NCBI GenBank assembly: GCA_002189035.1
Contig: NEEC01000051.1
Location: forward strand, 1-31,822
Direction: 5' to 3'
Origin: Utricularia gibba
Lineage: Eukaryota > Streptophyta > Magnoliopsida > Lamiales > Lentibulariaceae
Length of the DNA stretch: 31,822 bases
The notes below the pieces were generated by a model that saw nothing but the letters and a program-made list of their open reading frames with translations, was not told where the DNA came from and ran no database searches. Below are positions 1,577 to 31,822 of this stretch, piece after piece. A program made the position numbers and the translations under genes. Numbering within the stretch: the stretch's first letter is position 1; every line of letters starts with the position of its first letter.

Positions 1577-2112
1577 GAAAAGGGCTTCCCAACAGTGTGC
1601 TATGAAGAGCAAGGATCTGCATGTTATGCAAGAGGTGTTTCGCGGACCAGGATGTGCGACGTAGTCATTTCATTGCGCATCACCATTCGGGATGCAGCCG
1701 AAAAATCACACGTGCACCGGATTTGTTAAAAATAAATATTTACGCATATCCTGAGTATACAACAGTGTTGGGATAAGTGATGCCACGAAATTCATGATGT
1801 AACATGTGACTTTTTTCCATCTTGATCGCATATCCGATGAAGTTTGACACCATATGTTTTGGCTGTTGATTGATTCAATTAGTTGCTATGATACTTCTGA
1901 TTCTTGATGCACCATTCCCATACACCATGTCTCTAGTGGCTATTTGATTCTTTTGCCGTGTATCCCATTTGCATCAATGTCGAGAACGAGAAGCACATTC
2001 TTAGACGCAGCCACCAAGAAAGGACACCTAAGACACTTTTCGTTGTGGCTTGTTTTTAATATGTCCACAGTTATCGGACAAACGTAACTCCAAATTATAA
2101 TACTTGGAGCTC
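1577..2112. repeat. Reference B monomer (536 bp)
   Basis: This is the commonest form of the second monomer. Differences from A are sparse in columns 62-200, absent in several 34-41-bp blocks, and dense in columns 265-310 and 380-475 (roughly). The CATATG-to-TTAGTTGC interval is longer in B and contains GTTTTGGCTGTTGATTG. Exact copies of this form are at 4752-5287, 20040-20575, 22156-22691, 23215-23750 and 26392-26927; other B monomers differ mostly in their first 200 bp. Confidence 0.93.
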
Positions 2113-3167
2113 GAAAAGGGCTTCCCAACAGTGTGCTATGAAGAGCAAGGATCTGCATGTTATGCAAGAGGTGCTTCGCGGACCAGGATGTGCGACGTAG
2201 TCATTTCATTGCGCATCATCATTCGGGGTGCATCCTAAAAATCACACGTGCACGGGATTCATTAAAAATAAATATTTACGCATATCCAGAGTGTATAACA
2301 GTGTTGGGATAAGTGATGCCACGAAATTCATGATGTAGCATGTGACTTTTTCCAACTTGATCGCATAGTAGATGAATTCTGACACCATATGTTGATGCAT
2401 TTAGTTGCTATGATACTTCTGATTCTTGATGCACATTCCCGTATACCATGTCTCTAGTGGCTATTTGATTCTTTTGCCTTGTATGTTGTTCGCATCAATT
2501 TCGAGAACATGAAGCACATTATTAAATGCAGTCACCACGGAATGCCACGTGAGACACCTTTCGTTGTGGCCTTTTTTAATATGTCCACAGTTATCGGACA
2601 AACGTAACTCCAAATTATAATACTTGGAGCTCGAAAAGGGCTTCCCAACAGTGTGCTATGAAGAGCAAGGATCTGCATGTTATGCAAGAGGTGTTTCGCG
2701 ACCAGGATGTGCGACGTAGTCATTTCATTGCGCATCACCATTCGGGATGCAGCCGAAAAATCACACGTGCACCGGATTTGTTAAAAATAAATATTTACGC
2801 ATATCCTGAGTATACAACAGTGTTGGGATAAGTGATGCCACGAAATTCATGATGTAACATGTGACTTTTTTCCATCTTGATCGCATATCCGATGAAGTTT
2901 GACACCATATGTTTTGGCTGTTGATTGATTCAATTAGTTGCTATGATACTTCTGATTCTTGATGCACCATTCCCATACACCATGTCTCTAGTGGCTATTT
3001 GATTCTTTTGCCGTGTATCCCATTTGCATCAATGTCGAGAACGAGAAGCACATTCTTAGACGCAGCCACCAAGAAAGGACACCTAAGACACTTTTCGTTG
3101 TGGCTTGTTTTTAATATGTCCACAGTTATCGGACAAACGTAACTCCAAATTATAATACTTGGAGCTC
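2113..3167. repeat. Dimer 3 (A 520 + B 535)
   Basis: A, 2113-2632, lacks one T at GACTTTTTCC, one C at GCACATTCCC and one C at GTGGCCTTTT. B, 2633-3167, has CGCGACC with one G missing and is otherwise canonical. Confidence 0.92.
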
Positions 3168-4227
3168 GAAAAGGGCTTCCCAACAGTGTGCTATGAAGAG
3201 CAAGGATCTGCATGTTATGCAAGAGGTGCTTCGCGGACCAGGATGTGCGACGTAGTCATTTCATTGCGCATCATCATTCGGGGTGCATCCTAAAAATCAC
3301 ACGTGCACGGGATTCATTAAAAATAAATATTTACGCATATCCAGAGTGTATAACAGTGTTGGGATAAGTGATGCCACGAAATTCATGATGTAGCATGTGA
3401 CTTTTTTCCAACTTGATCGCATAGTAGATGAATTCTGACACCATATGTTGATGCATTTAGTTGCTATGATACTTCTGATTCTTGATGCACCATTCCCGTA
3501 TACCATGTCTCTAGTGGCTATTTGATTCTTTTGCCTTGTATGTTGTTCGCATCAATTTCGAGAACATGAAGCACATTATTAAATGCAGTCACCACGGAAT
3601 GCCACGTGAGACACCTTTCGTTGTGGCCCTTTTTTAATATGTCCACAGTTATCGGACAAACGTAACTCCAAATTATAATACTTGGAGCTCGAAAAGGGCT
3701 TCCCAACAGTGTGCTATGAAGAGCAAGGATCTGCATGTTATGCAAGAGGTGTTTTCGCGGACCAGGATGTGCGACGTAGTCATTTCATTGCGCATCACCA
3801 TTCGGGATGCAGCCGAAAAATCACACGTGCACCGGATTTGTTAAAAATAAATATTTACGCATATCCTGAGTATACAACAGTGTTGGGATAAGTGATGCCA
3901 CGAAATTCATGATGTAACATGTGACTTTTTTCCATCTTGATCGCATATCCGATGAAGTTTGACACCATATGTTTTGGCTGTTGATTGATTCAATTAGTTG
4001 CTATGATACTTCTGATTCTTGATGCACCATTCCCATACACCATGTCTCTAGTGGCTATTTGATTCTTTTGCCGTGTATCCCATTTGCATCAATGTCGAGA
4101 ACGAGAAGCACATTCTTAGACGCAGCCACCAAGAAAGGACACCTAAGACACTTTTCGTTGTGGCTTGTTTTAAATATGTCCACAGTTATCGGACAAACGT
4201 AACTCCAAATTATAATACTTGGAGCTC
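3168..4227. repeat. Dimer 4 (A 523 + B 537)
   Basis: A is canonical. B, 3691-4227, has an extra T in GTTTTCGCGG and a T-to-A change in GTTTTAAATATG near its 3' end. Confidence 0.93.
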
Positions 4228-5287
4228 GAAAAGGGCTTCCCAACAGTGTGCTATGAAGAGCAAGGATCTGCATGTTATGCAAGAGGTGCTTCGCGGACCA
4301 GGATGTGCGACGTAGTCATTTCATTGCGCATCATCATTCGGGGTGCATCCTAAAAATCACACGTGCACGGGATTCATTAAAAATAAATATTTACGCATAT
4401 CCAGAGTGTATAACAGTGTTGGGATAAGTGATGCCACGAAATTCATGATGTAGCATGTGACTTTTTTCCAACTTGATCGCATAGTAGATGAATTCTGACA
4501 CCATATGTTGATGCATTTAGTTGCTATGATACTTCTGATTCTTGATGCACCATTCCCGTATACCATGTCTCTAGTGGCTATTTGATTCTTTTGCCTTGTA
4601 TGTTGTTCGCATCAATTTCGAGAACATGAAGCACATTATTAAATGCAGTCACCACGGAATGCCACGTGAGACACCTTTCGTTGTGGCCCTTTTTTAATAT
4701 GTCCACAGTTATCGGACAAAACGTAACTCCAAATTATAATACTTGGAGCTCGAAAAGGGCTTCCCAACAGTGTGCTATGAAGAGCAAGGATCTGCATGTT
4801 ATGCAAGAGGTGTTTCGCGGACCAGGATGTGCGACGTAGTCATTTCATTGCGCATCACCATTCGGGATGCAGCCGAAAAATCACACGTGCACCGGATTTG
4901 TTAAAAATAAATATTTACGCATATCCTGAGTATACAACAGTGTTGGGATAAGTGATGCCACGAAATTCATGATGTAACATGTGACTTTTTTCCATCTTGA
5001 TCGCATATCCGATGAAGTTTGACACCATATGTTTTGGCTGTTGATTGATTCAATTAGTTGCTATGATACTTCTGATTCTTGATGCACCATTCCCATACAC
5101 CATGTCTCTAGTGGCTATTTGATTCTTTTGCCGTGTATCCCATTTGCATCAATGTCGAGAACGAGAAGCACATTCTTAGACGCAGCCACCAAGAAAGGAC
5201 ACCTAAGACACTTTTCGTTGTGGCTTGTTTTTAATATGTCCACAGTTATCGGACAAACGTAACTCCAAATTATAATACTTGGAGCTC
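4228..5287. repeat. Dimer 5 (A 524 + B 536)
   Basis: A, 4228-4751, has an extra A in GGACAAAACG. B, 4752-5287, is canonical. Confidence 0.93.
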
Positions 5288-6343
5288 GAAAAGGGCTTCC
5301 CAACAGTGTGCTATGAAGAGCAAGGATCTGCATGTTATGCAAGAGGTGCTTCGCGGACCAGGATGTGCGACGTAGTCATTTCATTGCGCATCATCATTCG
5401 GGGTGCATCCTAAAAATCACACGTGCACGGGATTCATTAAAAATAAATATTTACGCATATCCAGAGTGTATAACAGTGTTGGGATAAGTGATGCCACGAA
5501 ATTCATGATGTAGCATGTGACTTTTTTCCAACTTGATCGCATAGTAGATGAATTCTGACACCATATGTTGATGCATTTAGTTGCTATGATACTTCTGATT
5601 CTTGATGCACCATTCCCGTATACCATGTCTCTAGTGGCTATTTGATTCTTTTGCCTTGTATGTTGTTCGCATCAATTTCGAGAACATGAAGCACATTATT
5701 AAATGCAGTCACCACGGAATGCCACGTGAGACACCTTTCGTTGTGGCCCTTTTTTAATATGTCCACAGTTATCGGACAAACGTAACTCCAAATTATAATA
5801 CTTGGAGCTCGAAAAGGGCTTCCCAACAGTGTGCTATGAAGAGCAAGGATCTGCATGTTATGCAAGAGGTGTTTCGCGACCAGGATGTGCGACGTAGTCA
5901 TTTCATTGCGCATCACCATTCGGGATGCAGCCGAAAAATCACACGTGCACGGATTTGTTAAAAATAAATATTTACGCATATCCTGAGTATAAACAGTGTT
6001 GGGATAAGTGATGCCACGAAATTCATGATGTAACATGTGACTTTTTTCCATCTTGATCGCATATCCGATGAAGTTTGACACCATATGTTTTGGCTGTTGA
6101 TTGATTCAATTAGTTGCTATGATACTTCTGATTCTTGATGCACCATTCCCATACACCATGTCTCTAGTGGCTATTTGATTCTTTTGCCGTGTATCCCATT
6201 TGCATCAATGTCGAGAACGAGAAGCACATTCTTAGACGCAGCCACCAAGAAAGGACACCTAAGACACTTTTCGTTGTGGCTTGTTTTTAATATGTCCACA
6301 GTTATCGGACAAACGTAACTCCAAATTATAATACTTGGAGCTC
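5288..6343. repeat. Dimer 6 (A 523 + B 533)
   Basis: A is canonical. B, 5811-6343, has lost a G in CGCGACC, one base in GTGCACGGATTTG and one in GAGTATAAACAG. The last two losses sit at A/B-divergent columns. The resulting frame changes open a spurious 148-codon antisense frame at 5638-6084. Confidence 0.93.
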
Positions 6344-7401
6344 GAAAAGGGCTTCCCAACAGTGTGCTATGAAGAGCAAGGATCTGCATGTTATGCAAGA
6401 GGTGCTTCGCGGACCAGGATGTGCGACGTAGTCATTTCATTGCGCATCATCATTCGGGGTGCATCCTAAAAATCACACGTGCACGGGATTCATTAAAAAT
6501 AAATATTTACGCATATCCAGAGTGTATAACAGTGTTGGGATAAGTGATGCCACGAAATTCATGATGTAGCATGTGACTTTTTTCCAACTTGATCGCATAG
6601 TAGATGAATTCTGACACCATATGTTGATGCATTTAGTTGCTATGATACTTCTGATTCTTGATGCACCATTCCCGTATACCATGTCTCTAGTGGCTATTTG
6701 ATTCTTTTGCCTTGTATGTTGTTCGCATCAATTTCGAGAACATGAAGCACATTATTAAATGCAGTCACCACGGAATGCCACGTGAGACACCTTTCGTTGT
6801 GGCCCTTTTTTAATATGTCCACAGTTATCGGACAAACGTAACTCCAAATTATAATACTTGGAGCTCGAAAAGGGCTTCCCAACAGTGTGCTATGAAGAGC
6901 AAGGATCTGCATGTTATGCAAGAGGTGTTCGCGGACCAGGATGTGCGACGTAGTCATTTCATTGCGCATCACCATTCGGGATGCAGCCGAAAAATCACAC
7001 GTGCACCGGATTTGTTAAAAATAAATATTTACGCATATCCTGAGTATACAACAGTGTTGGGATAAGTGATGCCACGAAATTCATGATGTAACATGTGACT
7101 TTTTTCCATCTTGATCGCATATCCGATGAAGTTTGACACCATATGTTTTGGCTGTTGATTGATTCAATTAGTTGCTATGATACTTCTGATTCTTGATGCA
7201 CCATTCCCATACACCATGTCTCTAGTGGCTATTTGATTCTTTTGCCGTGTATCCCATTTGCATCAATGTCGAGAACGAGAAGCACATTCTTAGACGCAGC
7301 CACCAAGAAAGGACACCTAAGACACTTTTCGTTGTGGCTTGTTTTTAATATGTCCACAGTTATCGGACAAACGTAACTCCAAATTATAATACTTGGAGCT
7401 C
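6344..7401. repeat. Dimer 7 (A 523 + B 535)
   Basis: A is canonical. B, 6867-7401, reads GGTGTTCGCGG: the base that is C in A and T in B is missing. Confidence 0.93.
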
Positions 7402-9517: not shown

Positions 9518-10040
9518 GAAAAGGGCTTCCCAACAGTGTGCTATGAAGAGCAAGGATCTGCATGTTATGCAAGAGGTGCTTCGCGGACCAGGATGTGCGA
9601 CGTAGTCATTTCATTGCGCATCATCATTCGGGGTGCATCCTAAAAATCACACGTGCACGGGATTCATTAAAAATAAATATTTACGCATATCCAGAGTGTA
9701 TAACAGTGTTGGGATAAGTGATGCCACGAAATTCATGATGTAGCATGTGACTTTTTTCCAACTTGATCGCATAGTAGATGAATTCTGACACCATATGTTG
9801 ATGCATTTAGTTGCTATGATACTTCTGATTCTTGATGCACCATTCCCGTATACCATGTCTCTAGTGGCTATTTGATTCTTTTGCCTTGTATGTTGTTCGC
9901 ATCAATTTCGAGAACATGAAGCACATTATTAAATGCAGTCACCACGGAATGCCACGTGAGACACCTTTCGTTGTGGCCCTTTTTTAATATGTCCACAGTT
10001 ATCGGACAAACGTAACTCCAAATTATAATACTTGGAGCTC
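9518..10040. repeat. Unpaired A monomer (523 bp)
   Basis: A canonical A monomer, but followed by another A-type unit instead of B, so the strict alternation breaks here. Confidence 0.92.
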
Positions 10041-10535
10041 GAAAAGGGCTTCCCAACAGTGTGCTATGAAGAGCAAGGATCTGCATGTTATGCAAGAGGT
10101 GCTTCGCGACCAGGATGTGCGACGTAGTCATTTCATTGCGCATCATCATTCGGGGTGCATCCTAAAAATCACACGTGCACGGGATTCATTAAAAATAAAT
10201 ATTTACGCATATCCAGAGTGTATAACAGTGTTGGGATAAGTGATGCCACGAAATTCATGATGTAGCATGTGACTTTTTTCCAACTTGATCGCATATAGAT
10301 GAATTTGACACCATATGTTGATGCATTTAGTTGCTATGATACTTCTGATTCTTGATGCACCATTCCCGTATACCATGTCTCTAGTGGCTATTTGATTCTT
10401 TTGCCTTGTATATCAATTTCGAGAACATGAAGCACATTATTAAATGCAGCACCATAGACACTTTCGTTGTGGCCCTTTTTAATATGTCCACAGTTATCGG
10501 ACAAACGTAACTCCAAATTATAATACTTGGAGCTC
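10041..10535. repeat. Shortened A-type monomer (495 bp)
   Basis: A-type markers are present (CATCATCATTCGGGG, GTAGCATG, CCCGTATACC, GCCTTGTAT), yet 28 bp are missing in several small gaps: CATATAGATG for CATAGTAGATG, GAATTTGAC for GAATTCTGAC (destroying the EcoRI site), TTGTATATCAAT for TTGTATGTTGTTCGCATCAAT, and GCAGCACCATAGACAC for a longer stretch. All gaps fall in A/B-divergent segments. Confidence 0.88.
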
Positions 10536-11051
10536 GAAAAGGGCTTCCCAACAGTGTGCTATGAAGAGCAAGGATCTGCATGTTATGCAAGAGGTGCTTC
10601 GCGGACCAGGATGTGCGACGTAGTCATTTCATTGCGCATCACCATTCGGGATGCATCACACGTGCACGGATTCATTAAAAATAAATATTTACGCATATCC
10701 ACAGTGTTGGGATAAGTGATGCCACGAAATTCATGATGTAACATGTGACTTTTTTCCATCTTGATCGCATATCCGATGAAGTTTGACACCATATGTTTTG
10801 GCTGTTGATTGATTCAATTAGTTGCTATGATACTTCTGATTCTTGATGCACCATTCCCATACACCATGTCTCTAGTGGCTATTTGATTCTTTTGCCGTGT
10901 ATCCCATTTGCATCAATGTCGAGAACGAGAAGCACATTCTTAGACGCAGCCACCAAGAAAGGACACCTAAGACACTTTTCGTTGTGGCTTGTTTTTAATA
11001 TGTCCACAGTTATCGGACAAACGTAACTCCAAATTATAATACTTGGAGCTC
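10536..11051. repeat. Shortened B-type monomer (516 bp)
   Basis: The 3' two thirds are canonical B. The 5' part is mosaic: GCTTCGCGG (A), CATCACCATTCGGGA (B), then GCATCACACG with about ten bases gone where A has CATCCTAAAAATC and B has CAGCCGAAAAATC. TATCCACAGTG has lost the whole divergent AGAGTGTATA/TGAGTATACA segment. Confidence 0.88.
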
Positions 11052-12111
11052 GAAAAGGGCTTCCCAACAGTGTGCTATGAAGAGCAAGGATCTGCATGTT
11101 ATGCAAGAGGTGCTTCGCGGACCAGGATGTGCGACGTAGTCATTTCATTGCGCATCATCATTCGGGGTGCATCCTAAAAATCACACGTGCACGGGATTCA
11201 TTAAAAATAAATATTTACGCATATCCAGAGTGTATAACAGTGTTGGGATAAGTGATGCCACGAAATTCATGATGTAGCATGTGACTTTTTTCCAACTTGA
11301 TCGCATAGTAGATGAATTCTGACACCATATGTTGATGCATTTAGTTGCTATGATACTTCTGATTCTTGATGCACCATTCCCGTATACCATGTCTCTAGTG
11401 GCTATTTGATTCTTTTGCCTTGTATGTTGTTCGCATCAATTTCGAGAACATGAAGCACATTATTAAATGCAGTCACCACGGAATGCCACGTGAGACACCT
11501 TTCGTTGTGGCCCTTTTTTAATATGTCCACAGTTATCGGACAAACGTAACTCCAAATTATAATACTTGGAGCTCGAAAAAGGGCTTCCCAACAGTGTGCT
11601 ATGAAGAGCAAGGATCTGCATGTTATGCAAGAGGTGTTTCGCGGACCAGGATGTGCGACGTAGTCATTTCATTGCGCATCACCATTCGGGATGCAGCCGA
11701 AAAATCACACGTGCACCGGATTTGTTAAAAATAAATATTTACGCATATCCTGAGTATACAACAGTGTTGGGATAAGTGATGCCACGAAATTCATGATGTA
11801 ACATGTGACTTTTTTCCATCTTGATCGCATATCCGATGAAGTTTGACACCATATGTTTTGGCTGTTGATTGATTCAATTAGTTGCTATGATACTTCTGAT
11901 TCTTGATGCACCATTCCCATACACCATGTCTCTAGTGGCTATTTGATTCTTTTGCCGTGTATCCCATTTGCATCAATGTCGAGAACGAGAAGCACATTCT
12001 TAGACGCAGCCACCAAGAAAGGACACCTAAGACACTTTTCGTTGTGGCTTGTTTTTAATATGTCCACAGTTATCGGACAAACGTAACTCCAAATTATAAT
12101 ACTTGGAGCTC
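11052..12111. repeat. Dimer (A 523 + B 537)
   Basis: A is canonical. B, 11575-12111, starts GAAAAAGGGC with one extra A and is otherwise canonical. Confidence 0.93.
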
Positions 12112-14227: not shown

Positions 14228-15287
14228 GAAAAGGGCTTCCCAACAGTGTGCTATGAAGAGCAAGGATCTGCATGTTATGCAAGAGGTGCTTCGCGGACCA
14301 GGATGTGCGACGTAGTCATTTCATTGCGCATCATCATTCGGGGTGCATCCTAAAAATCACACGTGCACGGGATTCATTAAAAATAAATATTTACGCATAT
14401 CCAGAGTGTATAACAGTGTTGGGATAAGTGATGCCACGAAATTCATGATGTAGCATGTGACTTTTTTCCAACTTGATCGCATAGTAGATGAATTCTGACA
14501 CCATATGTTGATGCATTTAGTTGCTATGATACTTCTGATTCTTGATGCACCATTCCCGTATACCATGTCTCTAGTGGCTATTTGATTCTTTTGCCTTGTA
14601 TGTTGTTCGCATCAATTTCGAGAACATGAAGCACATTATTAAATGCAGTCACCACGGAATGCCACGTGAGACACCTTTCGTTGTGGCCCTTTTTTAATAT
14701 GTCCACAGTTATCGGACAAACGTAACTCCAAATTATAATACTTGGAGCTCGAAAAGGGCTTCCCAACAGTGTGCTATGAAGAGCAAGGATCTGCATGTTA
14801 TGCAAGAGGTGCTTCGCGGACCAGGATGTGCGACGTAGTCATTTCATTGCGCATCATCATTCGGGATGCATCCTAAAAAATCACACGTGCACGGGATTCA
14901 TTAAAAATAAATATTTACGCATATCCTGAGTGTATAACAGTGTTGGGATAAGTGATGCCACGAAATTCATGATGTAACATGTGACTTTTTTCCATCTTGA
15001 TCGCATATCCGATGAAGTTTGACACCATATGTTTTGGCTGTTGATTGATTCAATTAGTTGCTATGATACTTCTGATTCTTGATGCACCATTCCCATACAC
15101 CATGTCTCTAGTGGCTATTTGATTCTTTTGCCGTGTATCCCATTTGCATCAATGTCGAGAACGAGAAGCACATTCTTAGACGCAGCCACCAAGAAAGGAC
15201 ACCTAAGACACTTTTCGTTGTGGCTTGTTTTTAATATGTCCACAGTTATCGGACAAACGTAACTCCAAATTATAATACTTGGAGCTC
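14228..15287. repeat. Dimer with A-like B start (A 523 + B 537)
   Basis: B, 14751-15287, carries GCTTCG, CATCATCATT (A), CGGGATGC (B), CATCCT (A) with one extra A, GGGATTCATT (A), TCCTGAG (B), TGTATAAC (A), then pure B from GTAACATG. A and B bases switch several times within 120 bp. Confidence 0.92.
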
Positions 15288-16345
15288 GAAAAGGGCTTCC
15301 CAACAGTGTGCTATGAAGAGCAAGGATCTGCATGTTATGCAAGAGGTGCTTCGCGGACCAGGATGTGCGACGTAGTCATTTCATTGCGCATCATCATTCG
15401 GGGTGCATCCTAAAAATCACACGTGCACGGGATTCATTAAAAATAAATATTTACGCATATCCAGAGTGTATAACAGTGTTGGGATAAGTGATGCCACGAA
15501 ATTCATGATGTAGCATGTGACTTTTTTCCAACTTGATCGCATAGTAGATGAATTCTGACACCATATGTTGATGCATTTAGTTGCTATGATACTTCTGATT
15601 CTTGATGCACCATTCCCGTATACCATGTCTCTAGTGGCTATTTGATTCTTTTGCCTTGTATGTTGTTCGCATCAATTTCGAGAACATGAAGCACATTATT
15701 AAATGCAGTCACCACGGAATGCCACGTGAGACACCTTTCGTTGTGGCCCTTTTTTAATATGTCCACAGTTATCGGACAAACGTAACTCCAAATTATAATA
15801 CTTGGAGCTCGAAAAGGGCTTCCCAACAGTGTGCTATGAAGAGCAAGGATCTGCATGTTATGCAAGAGGTGCTTCGCGGACCAGGATGTGCGACGTAGTC
15901 ATTTCATTGCGCATCACATTCGGGGTGCAGCCTAAAAATCACACGTGCACGGGATTCATTAAAAATAAATATTTACGCATATCCAGAGTATACAACAGTG
16001 TTGGGATAAGTGATGCCACGAAATTCATGATGTAACATGTGACTTTTTTCCATCTTGATCGCATATCCGATGAAGTTTGACACCATATGTTTTGGCTGTT
16101 GATTGATTCAATTAGTTGCTATGATACTTCTGATTCTTGATGCACCATTCCCATACACCATGTCTCTAGTGGCTATTTGATTCTTTTGCCGTGTATCCCA
16201 TTTGCATCAATGTCGAGAACGAGAAGCACATTCTTAGACGCAGCCACCAAGAAAGGACACCTAAGACACTTTTCGTTGTGGCTTGTTTTTAATATGTCCA
16301 CAGTTATCGGACAAACGTAACTCCAAATTATAATACTTGGAGCTC
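15288..16345. repeat. Dimer with A-like B start (A 523 + B 535)
   Basis: B, 15811-16345, reads GCTTCG, CATCACATTC (T/C column missing), GGGGTGC (A), CAGCCT (B then A), GGGATTCATT (A), CCAGAGTATACAAC (A then B), then pure B. Confidence 0.92.
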
Positions 16346-17400
16346 GAAAAGGGCTTCCCAACAGTGTGCTATGAAGAGCAAGGATCTGCATGTTATGCAA
16401 GAGGTGCTTCGCGGACCAGGATGTGCGACGTAGTCATTTCATTGCGCATCATCATTCGGGGTGCATCCTAAAAATCACACGTGCACGGGATTCATTAAAA
16501 ATAAATATTTACGCATATCCAGAGTGTATAACAGTGTTGGGATAAGTGATGCCACGAAATTCATGATGTAGCATGTGACTTTTTTCCAACTTGATCGCAT
16601 AGTAGATGAATTCTGACACCATATGTTGATGCATTTAGTTGCTATGATACTTCTGATTCTTGATGCACCATTCCCGTATACCATGTCTCTAGTGGCTATT
16701 TGATTCTTTTGCCTTGTATGTTGTTCGCATCAATTTCGAGAACATGAAGCACATTATTAAATGCAGTCACCACGGAATGCCACGTGAGACACCTTTCGTT
16801 GTGGCCCTTTTTTAATATGTCCACAGTTATCGGACAAACGTAACTCCAAATTATAATACTTGGAGCTCGAAAGGGCTTCCCAACAGTGTGCTATGAAGAG
16901 CAAGGATCTGCATGTTATGCAGAGGTGCTTCGCGGACCAGGATGTGCGACGTAGTCATTTCATTGCGCATCATCATTCGGGTGCATCCTAAAAATCACAC
17001 GTGCACGGATTCATTAAAAATAAATATTTACGCATATCCAGAGTGTATAACAGTGTTGGGATAAGTGATGCCACGAAATTCATGATGTAACATGTGACTT
17101 TTTTCCATCTTGATCGCATATCCGATGAAGTTTGACACCATATGTTTTGGCTGTTGATTGATTCAATTAGTTGCTATGATACTTCTGATTCTTGATGCAC
17201 CATTCCCATACACCATGTCTCTAGTGGCTATTTGATTCTTTTGCCGTGTATCCCATTTGCATCAATGTCGAGAACGAGAAGCACATTCTTAGACGCAGCC
17301 ACCAAGAAAGGACACCTAAGACACTTTTCGTTGTGGCTTGTTTTTAATATGTCCACAGTTATCGGACAAACGTAACTCCAAATTATAATACTTGGAGCTC
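16346..17400. repeat. Dimer with A-like B start (A 523 + B 532)
   Basis: B, 16869-17400, starts GAAAGGGC (one A lost), has TGCAGAGG (one A lost), and is A-like to GTGTATAAC, with the divergent bases missing in ATTCGGGTGC and GCACGGATTC. It is B from GTAACATG onward. Confidence 0.92.
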
Positions 17401-18457
17401 GAAAAGGGCTTCCCAACAGTGTGCTATGAAGAGCAAGGATCTGCATGTTATGCAAGAGGTGCTTCGCGGACCAGGATGTGCGACGTAGTCATTTCATTGC
17501 GCATCATCATTCGGGGTGCATCCTAAAAATCACACGTGCACGGGATTCATTAAAAATAAATATTTACGCATATCCAGAGTGTATAACAGTGTTGGGATAA
17601 GTGATGCCACGAAATTCATGATGTAGCATGTGACTTTTTTCCAACTTGATCGCATAGTAGATGAATTCTGACACCATATGTTGATGCATTTAGTTGCTAT
17701 GATACTTCTGATTCTTGATGCACCATTCCCGTATACCATGTCTCTAGTGGCTATTTGATTCTTTTGCCTTGTATGTTGTTCGCATCAATTTCGAGAACAT
17801 GAAGCACATTATTAAATGCAGTCACCACGGAATGCCACGTGAGACACCTTTCGTTGTGGCCCTTTTTTAATATGTCCACAGTTATCGGACAAACGTAACT
17901 CCAAATTATAATACTTGGAGCTCGAAAAGGGCTTCCCAACAGTGTGCTATGAAGAGCAAGGATCTGCATGTTATGCAAGAGGTGCTTCGCGGACCAGGAT
18001 GTGCGACGTAGTCATTTCATTGCGCATCATCATTCGGGTGCATCCTAAAAATCACACGTGCACGGATTCATTAAAAATAAATATTTACGCATATCCAGAG
18101 TGTATAACATTGTTGGGATAAGTGATGCCACGAAATTCATGATGTAACATGTGACTTTTTTCCATCTTGATCGCATATCCGATGAAGTTTGACACCATAT
18201 GTTTTGGCTGTTGATTGATTCAATTAGTTGCTATGATACTTCTGATTCTTGATGCACCATTCCCATACACCATGTCTCTAGTGGCTATTTGATTCTTTTG
18301 CCGTGTATCCCATTTGCATCAATGTCGAGAACGAGAAGCACATTCTTAGACGCAGCCACCAAGAAAGGACACCTAAGACACTTTTCGTTGTGGCTTGTTT
18401 TTAATATGTCCACAGTTATCGGACAAACGTAACTCCAAATTATAATACTTGGAGCTC
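17401..18457. repeat. Dimer with A-like B start (A 523 + B 534)
   Basis: B, 17924-18457, is A-like to the GTAACATG marker. It has the same two losses as its predecessor (ATTCGGGTGC, GCACGGATTC) plus a private G-to-T in TAACATTGTTGG. The shared losses suggest either a common origin or a common calling error. Confidence 0.92.
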
Positions 18458-19516
18458 GAAAAGGGCTTCCCAACAGTGTGCTATGAAGAGCAAGGATCTG
18501 CATGTTATGCAAGAGGTGCTTCGCGGACCAGGATGTGCGACGTAGTCATTTCATTGCGCATCATCATTCGGGGTGCATCCTAAAAATCACACGTGCACGG
18601 GATTCATTAAAAATAAATATTTACGCATATCCAGAGTGTATAACAGTGTTGGGATAAGTGATGCCACGAAATTCATGATGTAGCATGTGACTTTTTTCCA
18701 ACTTGATCGCATAGTAGATGAATTCTGACACCATATGTTGATGCATTTAGTTGCTATGATACTTCTGATTCTTGATGCACCATTCCCGTATACCATGTCT
18801 CTAGTGGCTATTTGATTCTTTTGCCTTGTATGTTGTTCGCATCAATTTCGAGAACATGAAGCACATTATTAAATGCAGTCACCACGGAATGCCACGTGAG
18901 ACACCTTTCGTTGTGGCCCTTTTTTAATATGTCCACAGTTATCGGACAAACGTAACTCCAAATTATAATACTTGGAGCTCGAAAAGGGCTTCCCAACAGT
19001 GTGCTATGAAGAGCAAGGATCTGCATGTTATGCAAGAGGTGCTTCGCGGACCAGGATGTGCGACGTAGTCATTTCATTGCGCATCATCATTCGGGGTGCA
19101 TCCTAAAAATCACACGTGCACGGGATTCATTAAAAATAAATATTTACGCATATCCTGAGTGTATAACAGTGTTGGGATAAGTGATGCCACGAAATTCATG
19201 ATGTAACATGTGACTTTTTTCCATCTTGATCGCATATCCGATGAAGTTTGACACCATATGTTTTGGCTGTTGATTGATTCAATTAGTTGCTATGATACTT
19301 CTGATTCTTGATGCACCATTCCCATACACCATGTCTCTAGTGGCTATTTGATTCTTTTGCCGTGTATCCCATTTGCATCAATGTCGAGAACGAGAAGCAC
19401 ATTCTTAGACGCAGCCACCAAGAAAGGACACCTAAGACACTTTTCGTTGTGGCTTGTTTTTAATATGTCCACAGTTATCGGACAAACGTAACTCCAAATT
19501 ATAATACTTGGAGCTC
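18458..19516. repeat. Dimer with A-like B start (A 523 + B 536)
   Basis: B, 18981-19516, is full length and A-like through GGGATTCATT, then TCCTGAG (B), TGTATAAC (A), then B. It is the last of five consecutive dimers with an A-like B start. Confidence 0.93.
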
Positions 19517-20575
19517 GAAAAGGGCTTCCCAACAGTGTGCTATGAAGAGCAAGGATCTGCATGTTATGCAAGAGGTGCTTCGCGGACCAGGATGTGCGAC
19601 GTAGTCATTTCATTGCGCATCATCATTCGGGGTGCATCCTAAAAATCACACGTGCACGGGATTCATTAAAAATAAATATTTACGCATATCCAGAGTGTAT
19701 AACAGTGTTGGGATAAGTGATGCCACGAAATTCATGATGTAGCATGTGACTTTTTTCCAACTTGATCGCATAGTAGATGAATTCTGACACCATATGTTGA
19801 TGCATTTAGTTGCTATGATACTTCTGATTCTTGATGCACCATTCCCGTATACCATGTCTCTAGTGGCTATTTGATTCTTTTGCCTTGTATGTTGTTCGCA
19901 TCAATTTCGAGAACATGAAGCACATTATTAAATGCAGTCACCACGGAATGCCACGTGAGACACCTTTCGTTGTGGCCCTTTTTTAATATGTCCACAGTTA
20001 TCGGACAAACGTAACTCCAAATTATAATACTTGGAGCTCGAAAAGGGCTTCCCAACAGTGTGCTATGAAGAGCAAGGATCTGCATGTTATGCAAGAGGTG
20101 TTTCGCGGACCAGGATGTGCGACGTAGTCATTTCATTGCGCATCACCATTCGGGATGCAGCCGAAAAATCACACGTGCACCGGATTTGTTAAAAATAAAT
20201 ATTTACGCATATCCTGAGTATACAACAGTGTTGGGATAAGTGATGCCACGAAATTCATGATGTAACATGTGACTTTTTTCCATCTTGATCGCATATCCGA
20301 TGAAGTTTGACACCATATGTTTTGGCTGTTGATTGATTCAATTAGTTGCTATGATACTTCTGATTCTTGATGCACCATTCCCATACACCATGTCTCTAGT
20401 GGCTATTTGATTCTTTTGCCGTGTATCCCATTTGCATCAATGTCGAGAACGAGAAGCACATTCTTAGACGCAGCCACCAAGAAAGGACACCTAAGACACT
20501 TTTCGTTGTGGCTTGTTTTTAATATGTCCACAGTTATCGGACAAACGTAACTCCAAATTATAATACTTGGAGCTC
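19517..20575. repeat. Canonical dimer (A 523 + B 536)
   Basis: Both monomers match the reference copies; start of a regular nine-dimer stretch. Confidence 0.95.
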
Positions 20576-21632
20576 GAAAAGGGCTTCCCAACAGTGTGCT
20601 ATGAAGAGCAAGGATCTGCATGTTATGCAAGAGGTGCTTCGCGGACCAGGATGTGCGACGTAGTCATTTCATTGCGCATCATCATTCGGGGTGCATCCTA
20701 AAAATCACACGTGCACGGGATTCATTAAAAATAAATATTTACGCATATCCAGAGTGTATAACAGTGTTGGGATAAGTGATGCCACGAAATTCATGATGTA
20801 GCATGTGACTTTTTTCCAACTTGATCGCATAGTAGATGAATTCTGACACCATATGTTGATGCATTTAGTTGCTATGATACTTCTGATTCTTGATGCACCA
20901 TTCCCGTATACCATGTCTCTAGTGGCTATTTGATTCTTTTGCCTTGTATGTTGTTCGCATCAATTTCGAGAACATGAAGCACATTATTAAATGCAGTCAC
21001 CACGGAATGCCACGTGAGACACCTTTCGTTGTGGCCCTTTTTTAATATGTCCACAGTTATCGGACAAACGTAACTCCAAATTATAATACTTGGAGCTCGA
21101 AAAGGGCTTCCCAACAGTGTGCTATGAAGAGCAAGGATCTGCATGTTATGCAAGAGGTGTTTCGCGGACCAGGATGTGCGACGTAGTCATTTCATTGCGC
21201 ATCACATTCGGGTGCAGCCGAAAAATCACACGTGCACCGGATTTGTTAAAAATAAATATTTACGCATATCCTGAGTGTATAACAGTGTTGGGATAAGTGA
21301 TGCCACGAAATTCATGATGTAACATGTGACTTTTTTCCATCTTGATCGCATATCCGATGAAGTTTGACACCATATGTTTTGGCTGTTGATTGATTCAATT
21401 AGTTGCTATGATACTTCTGATTCTTGATGCACCATTCCCATACACCATGTCTCTAGTGGCTATTTGATTCTTTTGCCGTGTATCCCATTTGCATCAATGT
21501 CGAGAACGAGAAGCACATTCTTAGACGCAGCCACCAAGAAAGGACACCTAAGACACTTTTCGTTGTGGCTTGTTTTTAATATGTCCACAGTTATCGGACA
21601 AACGTAACTCCAAATTATAATACTTGGAGCTC
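20576..21632. repeat. Dimer (A 523 + B 534)
   Basis: B, 21099-21632, lacks the divergent bases in CATCACATTC and CGGGTGCAGCC and has the A-like GTGTATAAC; otherwise canonical. Confidence 0.93.
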
Positions 21633-22691
21633 GAAAAGGGCTTCCCAACAGTGTGCTATGAAGAGCAAGGATCTGCATGTTATGCAAGAGGTGCTTCGCG
21701 GACCAGGATGTGCGACGTAGTCATTTCATTGCGCATCATCATTCGGGGTGCATCCTAAAAATCACACGTGCACGGGATTCATTAAAAATAAATATTTACG
21801 CATATCCAGAGTGTATAACAGTGTTGGGATAAGTGATGCCACGAAATTCATGATGTAGCATGTGACTTTTTTCCAACTTGATCGCATAGTAGATGAATTC
21901 TGACACCATATGTTGATGCATTTAGTTGCTATGATACTTCTGATTCTTGATGCACCATTCCCGTATACCATGTCTCTAGTGGCTATTTGATTCTTTTGCC
22001 TTGTATGTTGTTCGCATCAATTTCGAGAACATGAAGCACATTATTAAATGCAGTCACCACGGAATGCCACGTGAGACACCTTTCGTTGTGGCCCTTTTTT
22101 AATATGTCCACAGTTATCGGACAAACGTAACTCCAAATTATAATACTTGGAGCTCGAAAAGGGCTTCCCAACAGTGTGCTATGAAGAGCAAGGATCTGCA
22201 TGTTATGCAAGAGGTGTTTCGCGGACCAGGATGTGCGACGTAGTCATTTCATTGCGCATCACCATTCGGGATGCAGCCGAAAAATCACACGTGCACCGGA
22301 TTTGTTAAAAATAAATATTTACGCATATCCTGAGTATACAACAGTGTTGGGATAAGTGATGCCACGAAATTCATGATGTAACATGTGACTTTTTTCCATC
22401 TTGATCGCATATCCGATGAAGTTTGACACCATATGTTTTGGCTGTTGATTGATTCAATTAGTTGCTATGATACTTCTGATTCTTGATGCACCATTCCCAT
22501 ACACCATGTCTCTAGTGGCTATTTGATTCTTTTGCCGTGTATCCCATTTGCATCAATGTCGAGAACGAGAAGCACATTCTTAGACGCAGCCACCAAGAAA
22601 GGACACCTAAGACACTTTTCGTTGTGGCTTGTTTTTAATATGTCCACAGTTATCGGACAAACGTAACTCCAAATTATAATACTTGGAGCTC
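21633..22691. repeat. Canonical dimer (A 523 + B 536)
   Basis: No difference from the reference dimer seen. Confidence 0.95.
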
Positions 22692-24809: not shown

Positions 24810-25868
24810 GAAAAGGGCTTCCCAACAGTGTGCTATGAAGAGCAAGGATCTGCATGTTATGCAAGAGGTGCTTCGCGGACCAGGATGTGCGACGTAGTCA
24901 TTTCATTGCGCATCATCATTCGGGGTGCATCCTAAAAATCACACGTGCACGGGATTCATTAAAAATAAATATTTACGCATATCCAGAGTGTATAACAGTG
25001 TTGGGATAAGTGATGCCACGAAATTCATGATGTAGCATGTGACTTTTTTCCAACTTGATCGCATAGTAGATGAATTCTGACACCATATGTTGATGCATTT
25101 AGTTGCTATGATACTTCTGATTCTTGATGCACCATTCCCGTATACCATGTCTCTAGTGGCTATTTGATTCTTTTGCCTTGTATGTTGTTCGCATCAATTT
25201 CGAGAACATGAAGCACATTATTAAATGCAGTCACCACGGAATGCCACGTGAGACACCTTTCGTTGTGGCCCTTTTTTAATATGTCCACAGTTATCGGACA
25301 AACGTAACTCCAAATTATAATACTTGGAGCTCGAAAAGGGCTTCCCAACAGTGTGCTATGAAGAGCAAGGATCTGCATGTTATGCAAGAGGTGCTTCGCG
25401 GACCAGGATGTGCGACGTAGTCATTTCATTGCGCATCACCATTCGGGATGCAGCCGAAAAATCACACGTGCACCGGATTTGTTAAAAATAAATATTTACG
25501 CATATCCTGAGTATACAACAGTGTTGGGATAAGTGATGCCACGAAATTCATGATGTAACATGTGACTTTTTTCCATCTTGATCGCATATCCGATGAAGTT
25601 TGACACCATATGTTTTGGCTGTTGATTGATTCAATTAGTTGCTATGATACTTCTGATTCTTGATGCACCATTCCCATACACCATGTCTCTAGTGGCTATT
25701 TGATTCTTTTGCCGTGTATCCCATTTGCATCAATGTCGAGAACGAGAAGCACATTCTTAGACGCAGCCACCAAGAAAGGACACCTAAGACACTTTTCGTT
25801 GTGGCTTGTTTTTAATATGTCCACAGTTATCGGACAAACGTAACTCCAAATTATAATACTTGGAGCTC
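24810..25868. repeat. Dimer (A 523 + B 536)
   Basis: B, 25333-25868, again carries only the A-type GTGCTTCG base, as in its left neighbour. Confidence 0.95.
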
Positions 25869-26927
25869 GAAAAGGGCTTCCCAACAGTGTGCTATGAAGA
25901 GCAAGGATCTGCATGTTATGCAAGAGGTGCTTCGCGGACCAGGATGTGCGACGTAGTCATTTCATTGCGCATCATCATTCGGGGTGCATCCTAAAAATCA
26001 CACGTGCACGGGATTCATTAAAAATAAATATTTACGCATATCCAGAGTGTATAACAGTGTTGGGATAAGTGATGCCACGAAATTCATGATGTAGCATGTG
26101 ACTTTTTTCCAACTTGATCGCATAGTAGATGAATTCTGACACCATATGTTGATGCATTTAGTTGCTATGATACTTCTGATTCTTGATGCACCATTCCCGT
26201 ATACCATGTCTCTAGTGGCTATTTGATTCTTTTGCCTTGTATGTTGTTCGCATCAATTTCGAGAACATGAAGCACATTATTAAATGCAGTCACCACGGAA
26301 TGCCACGTGAGACACCTTTCGTTGTGGCCCTTTTTTAATATGTCCACAGTTATCGGACAAACGTAACTCCAAATTATAATACTTGGAGCTCGAAAAGGGC
26401 TTCCCAACAGTGTGCTATGAAGAGCAAGGATCTGCATGTTATGCAAGAGGTGTTTCGCGGACCAGGATGTGCGACGTAGTCATTTCATTGCGCATCACCA
26501 TTCGGGATGCAGCCGAAAAATCACACGTGCACCGGATTTGTTAAAAATAAATATTTACGCATATCCTGAGTATACAACAGTGTTGGGATAAGTGATGCCA
26601 CGAAATTCATGATGTAACATGTGACTTTTTTCCATCTTGATCGCATATCCGATGAAGTTTGACACCATATGTTTTGGCTGTTGATTGATTCAATTAGTTG
26701 CTATGATACTTCTGATTCTTGATGCACCATTCCCATACACCATGTCTCTAGTGGCTATTTGATTCTTTTGCCGTGTATCCCATTTGCATCAATGTCGAGA
26801 ACGAGAAGCACATTCTTAGACGCAGCCACCAAGAAAGGACACCTAAGACACTTTTCGTTGTGGCTTGTTTTTAATATGTCCACAGTTATCGGACAAACGT
26901 AACTCCAAATTATAATACTTGGAGCTC
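25869..26927. repeat. Canonical dimer (A 523 + B 536)
   Basis: No difference from the reference dimer seen. Confidence 0.95.
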
Positions 26928-27982
26928 GAAAAGGGCTTCCCAACAGTGTGCTATGAAGAGCAAGGATCTGCATGTTATGCAAGAGGTGCTTCGCGGACCA
27001 GGATGTGCGACGTAGTCATTTCATTGCGCATCATCATTCGGGGTGCATCCTAAAAATCACACGTGCACGGGATTCATTAAAAATAAATATTTACGCATAT
27101 CCAGAGTGTATAACAGTGTTGGGATAAGTGATGCCACGAAATTCATGATGTAGCATGTGACTTTTTTCCAACTTGATCGCATAGTAGATGAATTCTGACA
27201 CCATATGTTGATGCATTTAGTTGCTATGATACTTCTGATTCTTGATGCACCATTCCCGTATACCATGTCTCTAGTGGCTATTTGATTCTTTTGCCTTGTA
27301 TGTTGTTCGCATCAATTTCGAGAACATGAAGCACATTATTAAATGCAGTCACCACGGAATGCCACGTGAGACACCTTTCGTTGTGGCCCTTTTTTAATAT
27401 GTCCACAGTTATCGGACAAACGTAACTCCAAATTATAATACTTGGAGCTCGAAAGGGCTTCCCAACAGTGTGCTATGAAGAGCAAGGATCTGCATGTTAT
27501 GCAAGAGGTGCTTCGCGGACCAGGATGTGCGACGTAGTCATTTCATTGCGCATCACATTCGGGATGCAGCCAAAAATCACACGTGCACGGGATTTGTTAA
27601 AAATAAATATTTACGCATATCCTGAGTATAAACAGTGTTGGGATAAGTGATGCCACGAAATTCATGATGTAACATGTGACTTTTTTCCATCTTGATCGCA
27701 TATCCGATGAAGTTTGACACCATATGTTTTGGCTGTTGATTGATTCAATTAGTTGCTATGATACTTCTGATTCTTGATGCACCATTCCCATACACCATGT
27801 CTCTAGTGGCTATTTGATTCTTTTGCCGTGTATCCCATTTGCATCAATGTCGAGAACGAGAAGCACATTCTTAGACGCAGCCACCAAGAAAGGACACCTA
27901 AGACACTTTTCGTTGTGGCTTGTTTTTAATATGTCCACAGTTATCGGACAAACGTAACTCCAAATTATAATACTTGGAGCTC
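26928..27982. repeat. Dimer (A 523 + B 532)
   Basis: B, 27451-27982, has four single-base losses: GAAAGGGC, CATCACATTC, GCAGCCAAAAATC (G/T column) and GAGTATAAACAG. It also has a C-to-G (A-type) change in CACGGGATTTG. Three of the four losses are at divergent columns. Confidence 0.93.
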
Positions 27983-29040
27983 GAAAAGGGCTTCCCAACA
28001 GTGTGCTATGAAGAGCAAGGATCTGCATGTTATGCAAGAGGTGCTTCGCGGACCAGGATGTGCGACGTAGTCATTTCATTGCGCATCATCATTCGGGGTG
28101 CATCCTAAAAATCACACGTGCACGGATTCATTAAAAATAAATATTTACGCATATCCAGAGTGTATAACAGTGTTGGGATAAGTGATGCCACGAAATTCAT
28201 GATGTAGCATGTGACTTTTTTCCAACTTGATCGCATAGTAGATGAATTCTGACACCATATGTTGATGCATTTAGTTGCTATGATACTTCTGATTCTTGAT
28301 GCACCATTCCCGTATACCATGTCTCTAGTGGCTATTTGATTCTTTTGCCTTGTATGTTGTTCGCATCAATTTCGAGAACATGAAGCACATTATTAAATGC
28401 AGTCACCACGGAATGCCACGTGAGACACCTTTCGTTGTGGCCCTTTTTTAATATGTCCACAGTTATCGGACAAACGTAACTCCAAATTATAATACTTGGA
28501 GCTCGAAAAGGGCTTCCCAACAGTGTGCTATGAAGAGCAAGGATCTGCATGTTATGCAAGAGGTGCTTCGCGGACCAGGATGTGCGACGTAGTCATTTCA
28601 TTGCGCATCACCATTCGGGATGCAGCCGAAAAATCACACGTGCACCGGATTTGTTAAAAATAAATATTTACGCATATCCTGAGTATACAACAGTGTTGGG
28701 ATAAGTGATGCCACGAAATTCATGATGTAACATGTGACTTTTTTCCATCTTGATCGCATATCCGATGAAGTTTGACACCATATGTTTTGGCTGTTGATTG
28801 ATTCAATTAGTTGCTATGATACTTCTGATTCTTGATGCACCATTCCCATACACCATGTCTCTAGTGGCTATTTGATTCTTTTGCCGTGTATCCCATTTGC
28901 ATCAATGTCGAGAACGAGAAGCACATTCTTAGACGCAGCCACCAAGAAAGGACACCTAAGACACTTTTCGTTGTGGCTTGTTTTTAATATGTCCACAGTT
29001 ATCGGACAAACGTAACTCCAAATTATAATACTTGGAGCTC
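27983..29040. repeat. Dimer (A 522 + B 536)
   Basis: A, 27983-28504, has GCACGGATTC with one base lost at a divergent column, one of few A copies so affected. B, 28505-29040, has the A-type GTGCTTCG and is otherwise canonical. Confidence 0.94.
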
Positions 29041-29535
29041 GAAAAGGGCTTCCCAACAGTGTGCTATGAAGAGCAAGGATCTGCATGTTATGCAAGAGGT
29101 GCTTCGCGGACCAGGATGTGCGACGTAGTCATTTCATTGCGCATCATCATTCGGGGTGCATCCTAAAAATCACACGTGCACGGGATTCATTAAAAATAAA
29201 TATTTACGCATATCCAGAGTGTATAACAGTGTTGGGATAAGTGATGCCACGAAATTCATGATGTAGCATGTGACTTTTTTCCACTTGATCGCATAGTAGA
29301 TGAATTTGACACCATATGTTGATATGTTGCTATGATACTTCTGATTCTTGATGCACCATTCCCGTATACCATGTCTCTAGTGGCTATTTGATTCTTTTGC
29401 CTGTATGTGCATCAATTTCGAGAACAGAAGCACATTATTAACGCAGCACCACTTGAGACACTTTCGTTGTGGCTTTTTTTAATATGTCCACAGTTATCGG
29501 ACAAACGTAACTCCAAATTATAATACTTGGAGCTC
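29041..29535. repeat. Shortened A-type monomer (495 bp)
   Basis: Canonical A to about 29280, then small gaps: TTCCACTTG, GAATTTGAC (EcoRI site lost), GTTGATATGTTGC, GCCTGTATGTGCATC, GAACAGAAGC, TTAACGCAGCACCACTTGAG, GACACTTTCG. Same length as the shortened A at 10041-10535, but with a different set of gaps. Confidence 0.88.
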
Positions 29536-30051
29536 GAAAAGGGCTTCCCAACAGTGTGCTATGAAGAGCAAGGATCTGCATGTTATGCAAGAGGTGTTCG
29601 CGGACCAGGATGTGCGACGTAGTCATTTCATTGCGCATCATCATTCGGGTGCATCCTAAAAATCACACGTGCACGGATTCATTAAAAATAAATATTTACG
29701 CATATCCAGAGTGTATAACAGTGTTGGGATAAGTGATGCCACGAAATTCATGATGTAGCATGTGACTTTTTTCCAACTTGATCGCATAGTAGATGAATTC
29801 TGACACCATATGTTGATGCATTTAGTTGCTATGATACTTCTGATTCTTGATGCACCATTCCCGTATACCATGTCTCTAGTGGCTATTTGATTCTTTTGCC
29901 TTGTATGTTGTTCGCATCAATTTCGAGAACATGAAGCACATTATTAAATGCAGCACCACGAATGCCACGTGAGACACTTTCGTTGTGGCTTTTTTTAATA
30001 TGTCCACAGTTATCGGACAAACGTAACTCCAAATTATAATACTTGGAGCTC
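29536..30051. repeat. Second consecutive A-type monomer (516 bp)
   Basis: A-type throughout (GTAGCATG, EcoRI site, CCCGTATACC, TATGTTGTTCGC). Divergent-column losses occur at GGTGTTCG, ATTCGGGTGC, GCACGGATTC, GCAGCACCACGAATG and GACACTTTCG. Two A-type units in a row break the A-B alternation for the second time. Confidence 0.9.
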
Positions 30052-30540
30052 GAAAAGGGCTTCCCAACAGTGTGCTATGAAGAGCAAGGATCTGCATGTT
30101 ATGCAAGAGGTGCTTCGCGGACCAGGATGTGCGACGTAGTCATTTCATTGCGCATCATCATTCGGGTGCATCCTAAAAATCACACGTGCACGGGATTTTT
30201 AAAAATAAATATTTACGCATATCCAGAGTATAACAGTGTTGGGATAAGTGATGCCACGAAATTCATGATGTAACATGTGACTTTTTTCCAACTTGATCGC
30301 ATAGTAGATGAATTTGACACATATGTTATGATTGATTTAGTTGCTATGATACTTCTGATTCTTGATGCACCATTCCCTATACCATGTCTCTAGTGGCTAT
30401 TTGATTCTTTTGCCTTGTATGTTTTCGCATCAATTTCGAGAACATGAAGCACATTTATGAGACACTTTTCGTTGTGGCCCTTTTTTAATATGTCCACAGT
30501 TATCGACAAACGTAACTCCAAATTATAATACTTGGAGCTC
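30052..30540. repeat. Mosaic A/B monomer, shortest in the array (489 bp)
   Basis: Markers alternate: GCTTCG and CATCATC (A), GTAACATG (B), CAACTTGATCGCATAGTAG (A), GAATTTGAC, then GTTATGATTGATTTAG, which matches neither type. CCCTATACC lacks the G/A base. About 26 bp are gone between GCACATT and TATGAGACAC. Dyad 1 is damaged (ATCGACAAA for ATCGGACAAA). Confidence 0.85.
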
Positions 30541-31051
30541 GAAAAGGGCTTCCCAACAGTGCTATGAAGAGCAAGGATCTGCATGTTATGCAAGAGGTGT
30601 TCGCGGACCAGGATGTGCGACGTAGTCATTTCATTGCGCATCACCATTCGGGATGCAGCCTAAAAATCACACGTGCACCGGATTTTAAAAATAAATATTT
30701 ACGCATATCCAGAGTATACAACAGTGTTGGGATAAGTGATGCCACGAAATTCATGATGTAACATGTGACTTTTTTCCATCTTGATCGCATATAGATGAAG
30801 TTTGACACCATATGTTGATTGCATTTAGTTGCTATGATACTTCTGATTCTTGATGCACCATTCCCGTATACCATGTCTCTAGTGGCTATTTGATTCTTTT
30901 GCCTTGTATGGTTTGCATCAATTTCGAGAACAGAAGCACATTCTTAGACGCAGCACCAAGAAAGGACACCTAAGACACTTTTCGTTGTGGCTTTTTAATA
31001 TGTCCACAGTTATCGGACAAACGTAACTCCAAATTATAATACTTGGAGCTC
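30541..31051. repeat. Mosaic B/A monomer (511 bp)
   Basis: Lacks two bases in CAACAGTGCTATG and the C/T base in GGTGTTCG. It has B-type CATCACCATTCGGGATGC, mixed CAGCCTAAAAATC, CCAGAGTATACAAC (A then B), GTAACATG (B), CATATAGATGAAG (mixed), GTTGATTGCATTTAG (intermediate), CCCGTATACC and GCCTTGTATG (A), then B-type TTCTTAGACGCAG followed by the loss of one C. Confidence 0.85.
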
Positions 31052-31573: not shown

Positions 31574-31822
31574 GAAAAGGGCTTCCCAACAGTGTGCTAT
31601 GAAGAGCAAGGATCTGCATGTTATGCAAGAGGTGCTTTCGCGGACCAGGATGTGCGACGTAGTCATTTCATTGCGCATCACCATTCGGGATGCAGCCGAA
31701 AAATTCCCATACACCATGTCTCTAGTGGCTATTTGATTCTTTTTGCCGTGTATCCCATTTGCATCAATGTCGAGAACGAGAAGCACATTCTTAGACGCAG
31801 CCACCAAGAAAGGACACCTAAG
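31574..31822. repeat. B monomer with 209-bp deletion, cut by window end
   Basis: Starts as B with GTGCTTTCGCGG (A-type C plus an extra T). After GCCGAAAAAT it jumps directly to TCCCATACACC, skipping 209 bp present in canonical B. The junction at 31703-31705 shows only a 2-bp overlap (AT). A further extra T follows in GATTCTTTTTGCC. The window stops in the B segment ending GGACACCTAAG. Confidence 0.88.

Follow-up and report, generated by a model that had tools for sequence, protein, structure and literature searches.

Single-base losses at divergent columns of a Utricularia gibba satellite array: a very probable product of blended reads in long-read consensus

Background

Two descriptions of long-read assembly come closest to the case reported here. 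An early version of FALCON is reported to have produced indels when the assembler merged differing haplotypes (PMC5632298), and the HiCanu paper states that permissive long-read assembly mixes similar repeat copies (PMC7545148). The published description of the Utricularia gibba assembly names PacBio reads at 88x, the HGAP assembler and 581 contigs (PMC5793159), and PBDAGCON is described as the error-correction module of HGAP in a further paper (PMC13048229). Here we are concerned with one stretch of the deposited assembly (GCA_002189035.1; 100.09 Mb in 516 contigs), the whole of contig NEEC01000051.1 with its 31,822 bases, below called the window (contig C323 in our numbering), which is filled by a satellite array of head-to-tail dimers of about 1,059 bases each, composed of two diverged monomers, A and B.

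A previous reading made from the letters of the window (the sequence-only reading) had proposed that most single-base losses in the array sit exactly where A and B differ and that they arose when a consensus caller met a mixture of A and B reads. We find that losses are enriched at the columns that differ between the monomers, that this enrichment is organised in zones, and that simulated mixing of reads yields such patterns. The dropouts were very probably made by the consensus step of long-read assembly, through blending of reads from differing repeat copies, and are in that case not evolutionary changes.

The array and its monomers

The window has 61 anchor sites delimiting 60 complete units, and the array and the two reference monomers are placed as follows.

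1 to 31,822, forward strand: satellite array, with anchor sites and units along the whole contig (G000:C323)
1,058 to 1,580, forward strand: reference monomer A of 523 bases, with the same sequence as the commonest A
1,581 to 2,116, forward strand: reference monomer B of 536 bases, with the same sequence as the commonest B

The two monomers are separated by 57 edits, and their alignment has 536 columns, comprising 478 shared columns, 45 mismatched columns and one 13-base insert present in B only. Diverged monomers alternate while the dimers are nearly identical, and the array is in this respect like the dimeric higher-order satellite arrays of plants, with its head-to-tail A-B dimers and a similarity between dimers far above that between A and B. 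The same array is also found in the contigs C322, C324, C167, C80, C291 and C292, and the seven fully read array contigs measure 20.8-32.3 kb. The window and its sister contigs C322, C324, C167 and C80 (the first five contigs) contain 248 units, among which 67 are exact A and 41 exact B, whereas C291 and C292 form a held-out pair that was read after the tests had been set and from which 83 of 85 units were used.

Losses at divergent columns

Every complete unit was placed on the A/B columns by an alignment that could pass freely from one parent to the other, which restricts the count to events that no A/B mosaic explains. In the first five contigs 244 of the 248 units were counted, two being too long to align and two (C324:8216 and C80:24102) being left out with an alignment cost above 60. 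Ambiguous gaps were bounded both ways, a single placement for each such gap having been rejected, and the identical classifier was applied to an exhaustive null, in which A and B were each deprived of every one of their bases in turn.

In the window, 42 of the 53 isolated single-base deletions lie at, or are indistinguishable from loss at, a divergent column, 10 of them being placeable only there and 32 being equivalent to loss in a neighbouring homopolymer. The null expectation for this class is 10-11% unweighted and 16-23% with run-length-cubed weights. The four sister contigs have 123 of 177 isolated deletions at divergent columns and the held-out pair 52 of 81. The excess persists when each non-scrambled unit contributes a single event and the null is set at 23.1%: the 19 units of the window give a median p of 3e-5, the 66 units of the other four contigs one of 3e-12, and the 32 units of the held-out pair one of 2e-6. 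The window has 112 further deletions that are clustered, 53 of them at divergent and 59 at shared columns, and most of these belong to the patches at 10,064-11,074 and 29,064-31,074.

Aligning A with B, listing the indels and testing their overlap with divergent columns was the check proposed in the sequence-only reading, and it returned the enrichment expected there, although the word "exactly" proves too strong, the share being about four fifths in the window and about two thirds elsewhere. The eight motifs quoted as examples of loss are all present in the window and absent from A and B, with GGTGTTCG occurring 4 times, CATCACATTC 4, ATTCGGGTGC 5, GCACGGATTC 5, GAGTATAAACAG 2, GACACTTTCG 4, GCAGCACCA 4 and GAACAGAAGC 2 times. 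The losses are not limited to the span of 1,577-31,051 to which they had been assigned, being also found before base 1,577, in the units at 24 and 546.

Zones of loss and the hybrid monomer

The zone counts of foreign alleles and of drops leave out 25 scrambled units, 5 of them in the window. Among the 104 B-phase units, A alleles, which are foreign there, occupy 180 of the 1,144 cells that belong to the first 11 divergent columns but 8 of the 3,536 that belong to the remaining 34, and the drops are distributed likewise, with 63 in the former cells and 9 in the latter. The 115 A-phase units have the zones reversed, with foreign alleles in 1 of 1,265 cells of the first 11 columns and in 22 of 3,910 of the other 34, and with 7 and 48 drops respectively. 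The held-out B-phase units repeat the zones (drops 23 of 407 versus 6 of 1,258; foreign alleles 75 versus 1), while the held-out A-phase units, in which events are too few, do not show them (drops 4 of 396 versus 5 of 1,224; foreign alleles 0 versus 1). Within the 5' zone of B-phase units, 54 drops fall in 5 columns whose difference can be rewritten as a change in run length and 9 in the 6 other columns.

We take these zones to reflect a hybrid monomer, H, with A alleles up to column 161 and B alleles from column 203. Both zones are explained by H, because H differs from B only in its 5' part and from A only in its 3' part. The mixture in non-scrambled units is accordingly mostly one of H with B or of H with A, and not of A with B in register. 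Plain mixing of A against B was considered as the main picture for these units and was rejected in view of the zoning of foreign alleles and drops; the idea that mixed reads led to dropped columns is retained from the sequence-only reading with a different partner, mainly H in place of the other parental monomer. H is found free of divergent-column loss at C322:4319 and C80:15110, and in near-pure H units (these two and C292:6284) the switch lies within a 41-base tract identical in A and B, columns 162-202, some H-like units switching a column or two earlier. H is probably real, a product of unequal crossover or conversion. A B variant that carries the A base at column 39, has the full 536 bases without loss, was seen 11 times and occurs in consecutive dimers of several contigs, is likewise likely to be a real sub-variant.

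C80:16169, C291:11841, C292:12940 and window 24,297: column-39 B variant, recurring without loss

In the 25 scrambled units neither zone is spared, a base being missing from 43 of 275 cells of the 5' zone and from 175 of 850 cells of the 3' zone. Their 5' zone holds 194 A alleles, 38 B alleles and 43 losses and their 3' zone 255 A, 419 B and 175 losses, which fits a mixture of A with H for many of them, while some mix in both zones and may contain A with B. The intervals between clean A units number 94, of which 53 hold only clean B in phase, 31 are mixed in phase and 4 contain units that are long or foreign. The remaining 6 are phase breaks, each of them in a mixed interval and none among the 53 clean ones.

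Simulated consensus

Consensus calling was simulated with a simplified graph-consensus caller, our own code modelled on the pbdagcon scheme, which was given noisy reads drawn from A, B and H and yielded 1,800 mixed and 480 unmixed units. Divergent columns were dropped 9 times in the 480 unmixed units as compared to 533 times in 120 units with A and B at 50:50, with fewer drops toward 30:70, and they were still dropped when mismatch conversion was off. The ranks of simulated and observed columns agree with a rho of 0.87 for the 5' columns of B-phase units against B+H, 0.68 for the 3' columns of A-phase units against A+H and 0.76 for the 3' columns of scrambled units against A+H; in the held-out pair the match is weak for the 5' columns (0.52, p 0.10) and holds for the 3' columns (0.63, p 6e-5).

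Furthermore, mixing makes most of the partial states of the 13-base insert that the assembly has. The 1,800 mixed simulations produced 53 such states, and these include 7 of the 7 distinct ones of the first five contigs and 4 of the 6 of the held-out pair, whereas a single unit of the 480 unmixed ones has any such state. The unmixed set likewise has almost no column alternation (13 switches between parents in 480 units), so that both column-scale alternation and partial inserts arise by mixing and almost never without it. The commonest simulated substitutions (277G, 271A and 423A), the commonest insertion (274T) and the two commonest simulated shared-column losses (157 and 322) are all present in the first five contigs and absent from the 480 unmixed units.

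A comparison of novel 24-mers was set aside, because most single deletions are already represented in its random-deletion control and because fewer unmixed units than mixed ones entered it. It had given 2,635 of 4,627 novel 24-mers in the 1,800 mixed units, 389 in the 480 unmixed and 1,732 in the control, and for the window 824, 169 and 601, respectively, of 1,321.

Individual units and patches

The following features of the window are all on the forward strand.

5,834 to 6,366: B-phase unit in which divergent columns 119 and 161 are isolated dropouts and a base is also lost at shared column 45
10,064 to 11,074: two units, of 495 and 516 bases, that are scrambled and have lost blocks of sequence around divergent columns
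14,774 to 19,539: five H-like B-phase units in successive dimers, with A-phase units between them
21,122 to 21,655: B-phase unit in which columns 84 and 93 are dropouts and columns 158 and 161 carry A alleles
27,473 to 28,005: B-phase unit with interleaved A and B alleles in its 5' columns and dropouts at 84, 101 and 161
29,064 to 31,074: four units of 495, 516, 487 and 513 bases that form a patch near the contig end, with heavy divergent-column loss
31,597 to 31,822: last, truncated unit, apparently keeping both bases of column 39 (GGTGCTTTCG)

The two units at 10,064-11,074 form a phase break between the clean A units at 9,541 and 11,075. In the H-like units at 14,774-19,539 the divergent columns from 39 to 161 mostly carry A alleles and those from 203 onward carry B alleles, with dropouts at 84, 93 and 119, and the units at 16,891 and 17,947 have the same two dropouts in common. 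Changes in the patch at 29,064-31,074 that the mixing simulation also produced are the substitutions 271A and 277G in the unit at 30,075 and the insertion 274T in the unit at 30,562, and in the last unit about 210 internal bases are missing near 31,704.

Elsewhere in the array, the unit middles at C324:8216-8732 and C167:22872-23529 are a jumble of short satellite words, like a consensus over out-of-register reads. The B unit at C324:12430-13239 measures 810 bases because some 275 bases are duplicated in tandem inside it, the rest being intact, and this duplication may be a real event.

Extent of the array in the assembly

When the first 2,000 bases of seven further contigs were sampled, the array was present in C293 and C79 and not in the five others, and a probe of 107 shared bases gave 522 first-look candidates genome-wide, of which 40 were scored. 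Tandem Repeats Finder has no row for the window, its longest period being 500, and Rfam gave no match at gathering score in the window. The assembly has 149 WRKY matches, as compared to none in 14 control genomes, which agrees with its plant origin. The accessible portions of the literature on satellites or on the species, including PMC10663240, do not identify this satellite. One conserved word of small-subunit rRNA has its sole exact match at C409:392088-392105, in a fragment that scores as bacterial-type small-subunit rRNA and is perhaps organelle-derived; nuclear ribosomal DNA was not found with that single word.

Discussion

The observations above are best accounted for by blending, which covers the position of the losses, broadly the choice of columns that drop, and several other odd features to which it had not been fitted. 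The genome would hold a long and highly homogenised A-B array together with hybrid H monomers and slips in monomer count, and noisy reads from different positions of this array would have been stacked on one another. In a stack of A with H or of B with H, to which A with B may perhaps be added for some scrambled units, the two alternative bases at a divergent column would each fall short of the needed weight. Most often where such a difference is equivalent to a one-base change in the adjoining runs, the aligner would split it into an insertion and a deletion, both of which the best path would then skip. Elsewhere the column vote would flip between A and B, with the result that alleles alternate from one column to the next, that the 13-base insert survives in fragments, or that both bases are retained. 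That reads of this assembly were actually mixed, and by which technology and at which stage, is what we infer from these patterns.

Several observations nonetheless weigh against blending, some of which are taken up below with the alternatives that they favour. Some isolated deletions are confined to shared columns, namely 11 out of 53 for the window, 54 out of 177 for the four sister contigs and 29 out of 81 for the held-out pair. The simulator is simplified, with chosen error rates and non-reproducible seeds, its rank match for the held-out 5' columns is weak (rho 0.52, p 0.10), and with mismatch conversion off the 5' match falls to the same level (rho 0.52, p 0.10). Some common simulated changes are hardly or not seen in the assembly, for example the insertions 436C and 368T and the losses at 274, 277 and 454, and the insertion 449C also arises unmixed. 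Two of the commonest shared-column losses of the first five contigs lie at column 515, in an AAAA run (12 times), and at column 45, where CGCGG becomes CGCG (6 times), and these are rare (6 in 1,800) or absent in the mixed simulations. Mixing of A, B and H gives no account of them, and they may stem from homopolymer error or from an unseen fourth variant.

Window units at 16,369 and 26,951: column-515 losses, in the AAAA run
Window units at 546, 2,656, 5,834 and 10,064: column-45 losses, CGCGG to CGCG

If blending is the cause, it could have taken place in later polishing with short or multi-mapped reads and not in long-read correction or draft consensus. The final sequence alone cannot distinguish the stage, and drops at divergent columns are, as noted, also simulated without mismatch conversion, but whole-unit scrambling and phase breaks alongside the losses suggest that long templates were mixed out of register at draft level, and we regard the polishing stage as possible though rather unlikely.

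Ordinary under-calling of homopolymers in long reads, with a link to divergent columns that would be incidental as the differences often adjoin runs, deserves consideration in view of the recurrent losses in the shared AAAA and GG runs. To address this, runs touching a divergent column were compared with runs not touching one, matched on run length, in pure-phase units without foreign alleles. In the first five contigs a base is lost in 34 of 6,926 run-units touching a divergent column and in 32 of 57,930 others (odds ratio 8.9 overall), the odds ratio being 6.0 at run length 2 and 6.8 at length 3, and in the held-out pair the counts are 17 of 2,202 and 13 of 18,374 (11.0 overall and 11.6 at length 3). 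Touching and non-touching runs of length at least 4 do not however differ significantly (odds ratio 1.7 in the first five contigs; 2.2, p 0.26, in the held-out pair), and length 2 shows no enrichment in the held-out pair (1.3, p 0.57). Run length alone moreover ranks the 11 5' columns nearly as well (rho 0.74-0.78) as the simulation does (0.87), but it ranks the 3' columns poorly, with 0.34-0.35 as compared to 0.68. Unmixed consensus with read errors furthermore gave next to none of the parental switches and partial inserts seen with mixing, and homopolymer error would not link losses to the zones that hold foreign alleles. Since the run-length-matched odds stay raised at divergent columns, homopolymer error contributes yet is not the main cause; the matched control largely refutes it in the latter role, in which we consider it improbable, and it stays a minor contributor.

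A further alternative is that the variants exist in the genome, A and B having exchanged sequence by unequal crossover and patchy repair to give the hybrids, with loss of mismatched bases on the way. Real exchange between A and B is indeed likely in view of the loss-free H units and the recurring column-39 B variant. In addition, successive same-phase units have the same dropout state three times (window 16,891/17,947, C167 5,933/6,991 and C291 9,725/10,783), and inherited variants would give such repeated states too. Against inheritance of the losses stands that 154 of the 196 non-clean units among the 333 units of the seven contigs are unique in sequence. Moreover, exact-sequence runs shared within or between these contigs and containing two non-clean units number only four, all of them the loss-free 536-base column-39 variant. 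Deletions per unit furthermore peak within 2.5 kb of the contig ends (243 in 48 units, or 5.06, versus 0.94-2.08 further in). On balance the losses look like the outcome of local read stacks and not like an inherited array, and we hold it very improbable that the variants as a whole are real. We know of no repair process that deletes mismatched bases in such a manner, and a heteroduplex repair of A/H or B/H that would drop both mismatched bases beside short runs, and so shrink the satellite at its divergent columns, is a highly implausible source of the losses.

With blending as the preferred explanation, satellite turnover, indel rates or homogenisation measured on this array would largely reflect the consensus caller, and even the perfect identity of the clean units may be imposed in part by the pooling of reads. 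On the other hand, a preference of losses for columns that diverge between copies, matched on run length, constitutes a test that needs no reads and could flag blended repeats in other long-read assemblies.

The accessible portions of the literature, including PMC7545148, PMC5411767, PMC13048229 and PMC6868369, hold no description of dropouts at divergent columns in satellites. The HiCanu account, as far as its available text extends, does not describe base loss at divergent columns (PMC7545148). The merged haplotypes of FALCON differ from the present case in that two alleles were involved there (PMC5632298), whereas here the merged sequences would be copies within one tandem array, a hybrid monomer included. 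Nevertheless the dropouts of the Utricularia gibba array appear to be the same kind of artefact as the indels of merged haplotypes, arising in this instance in a satellite array.

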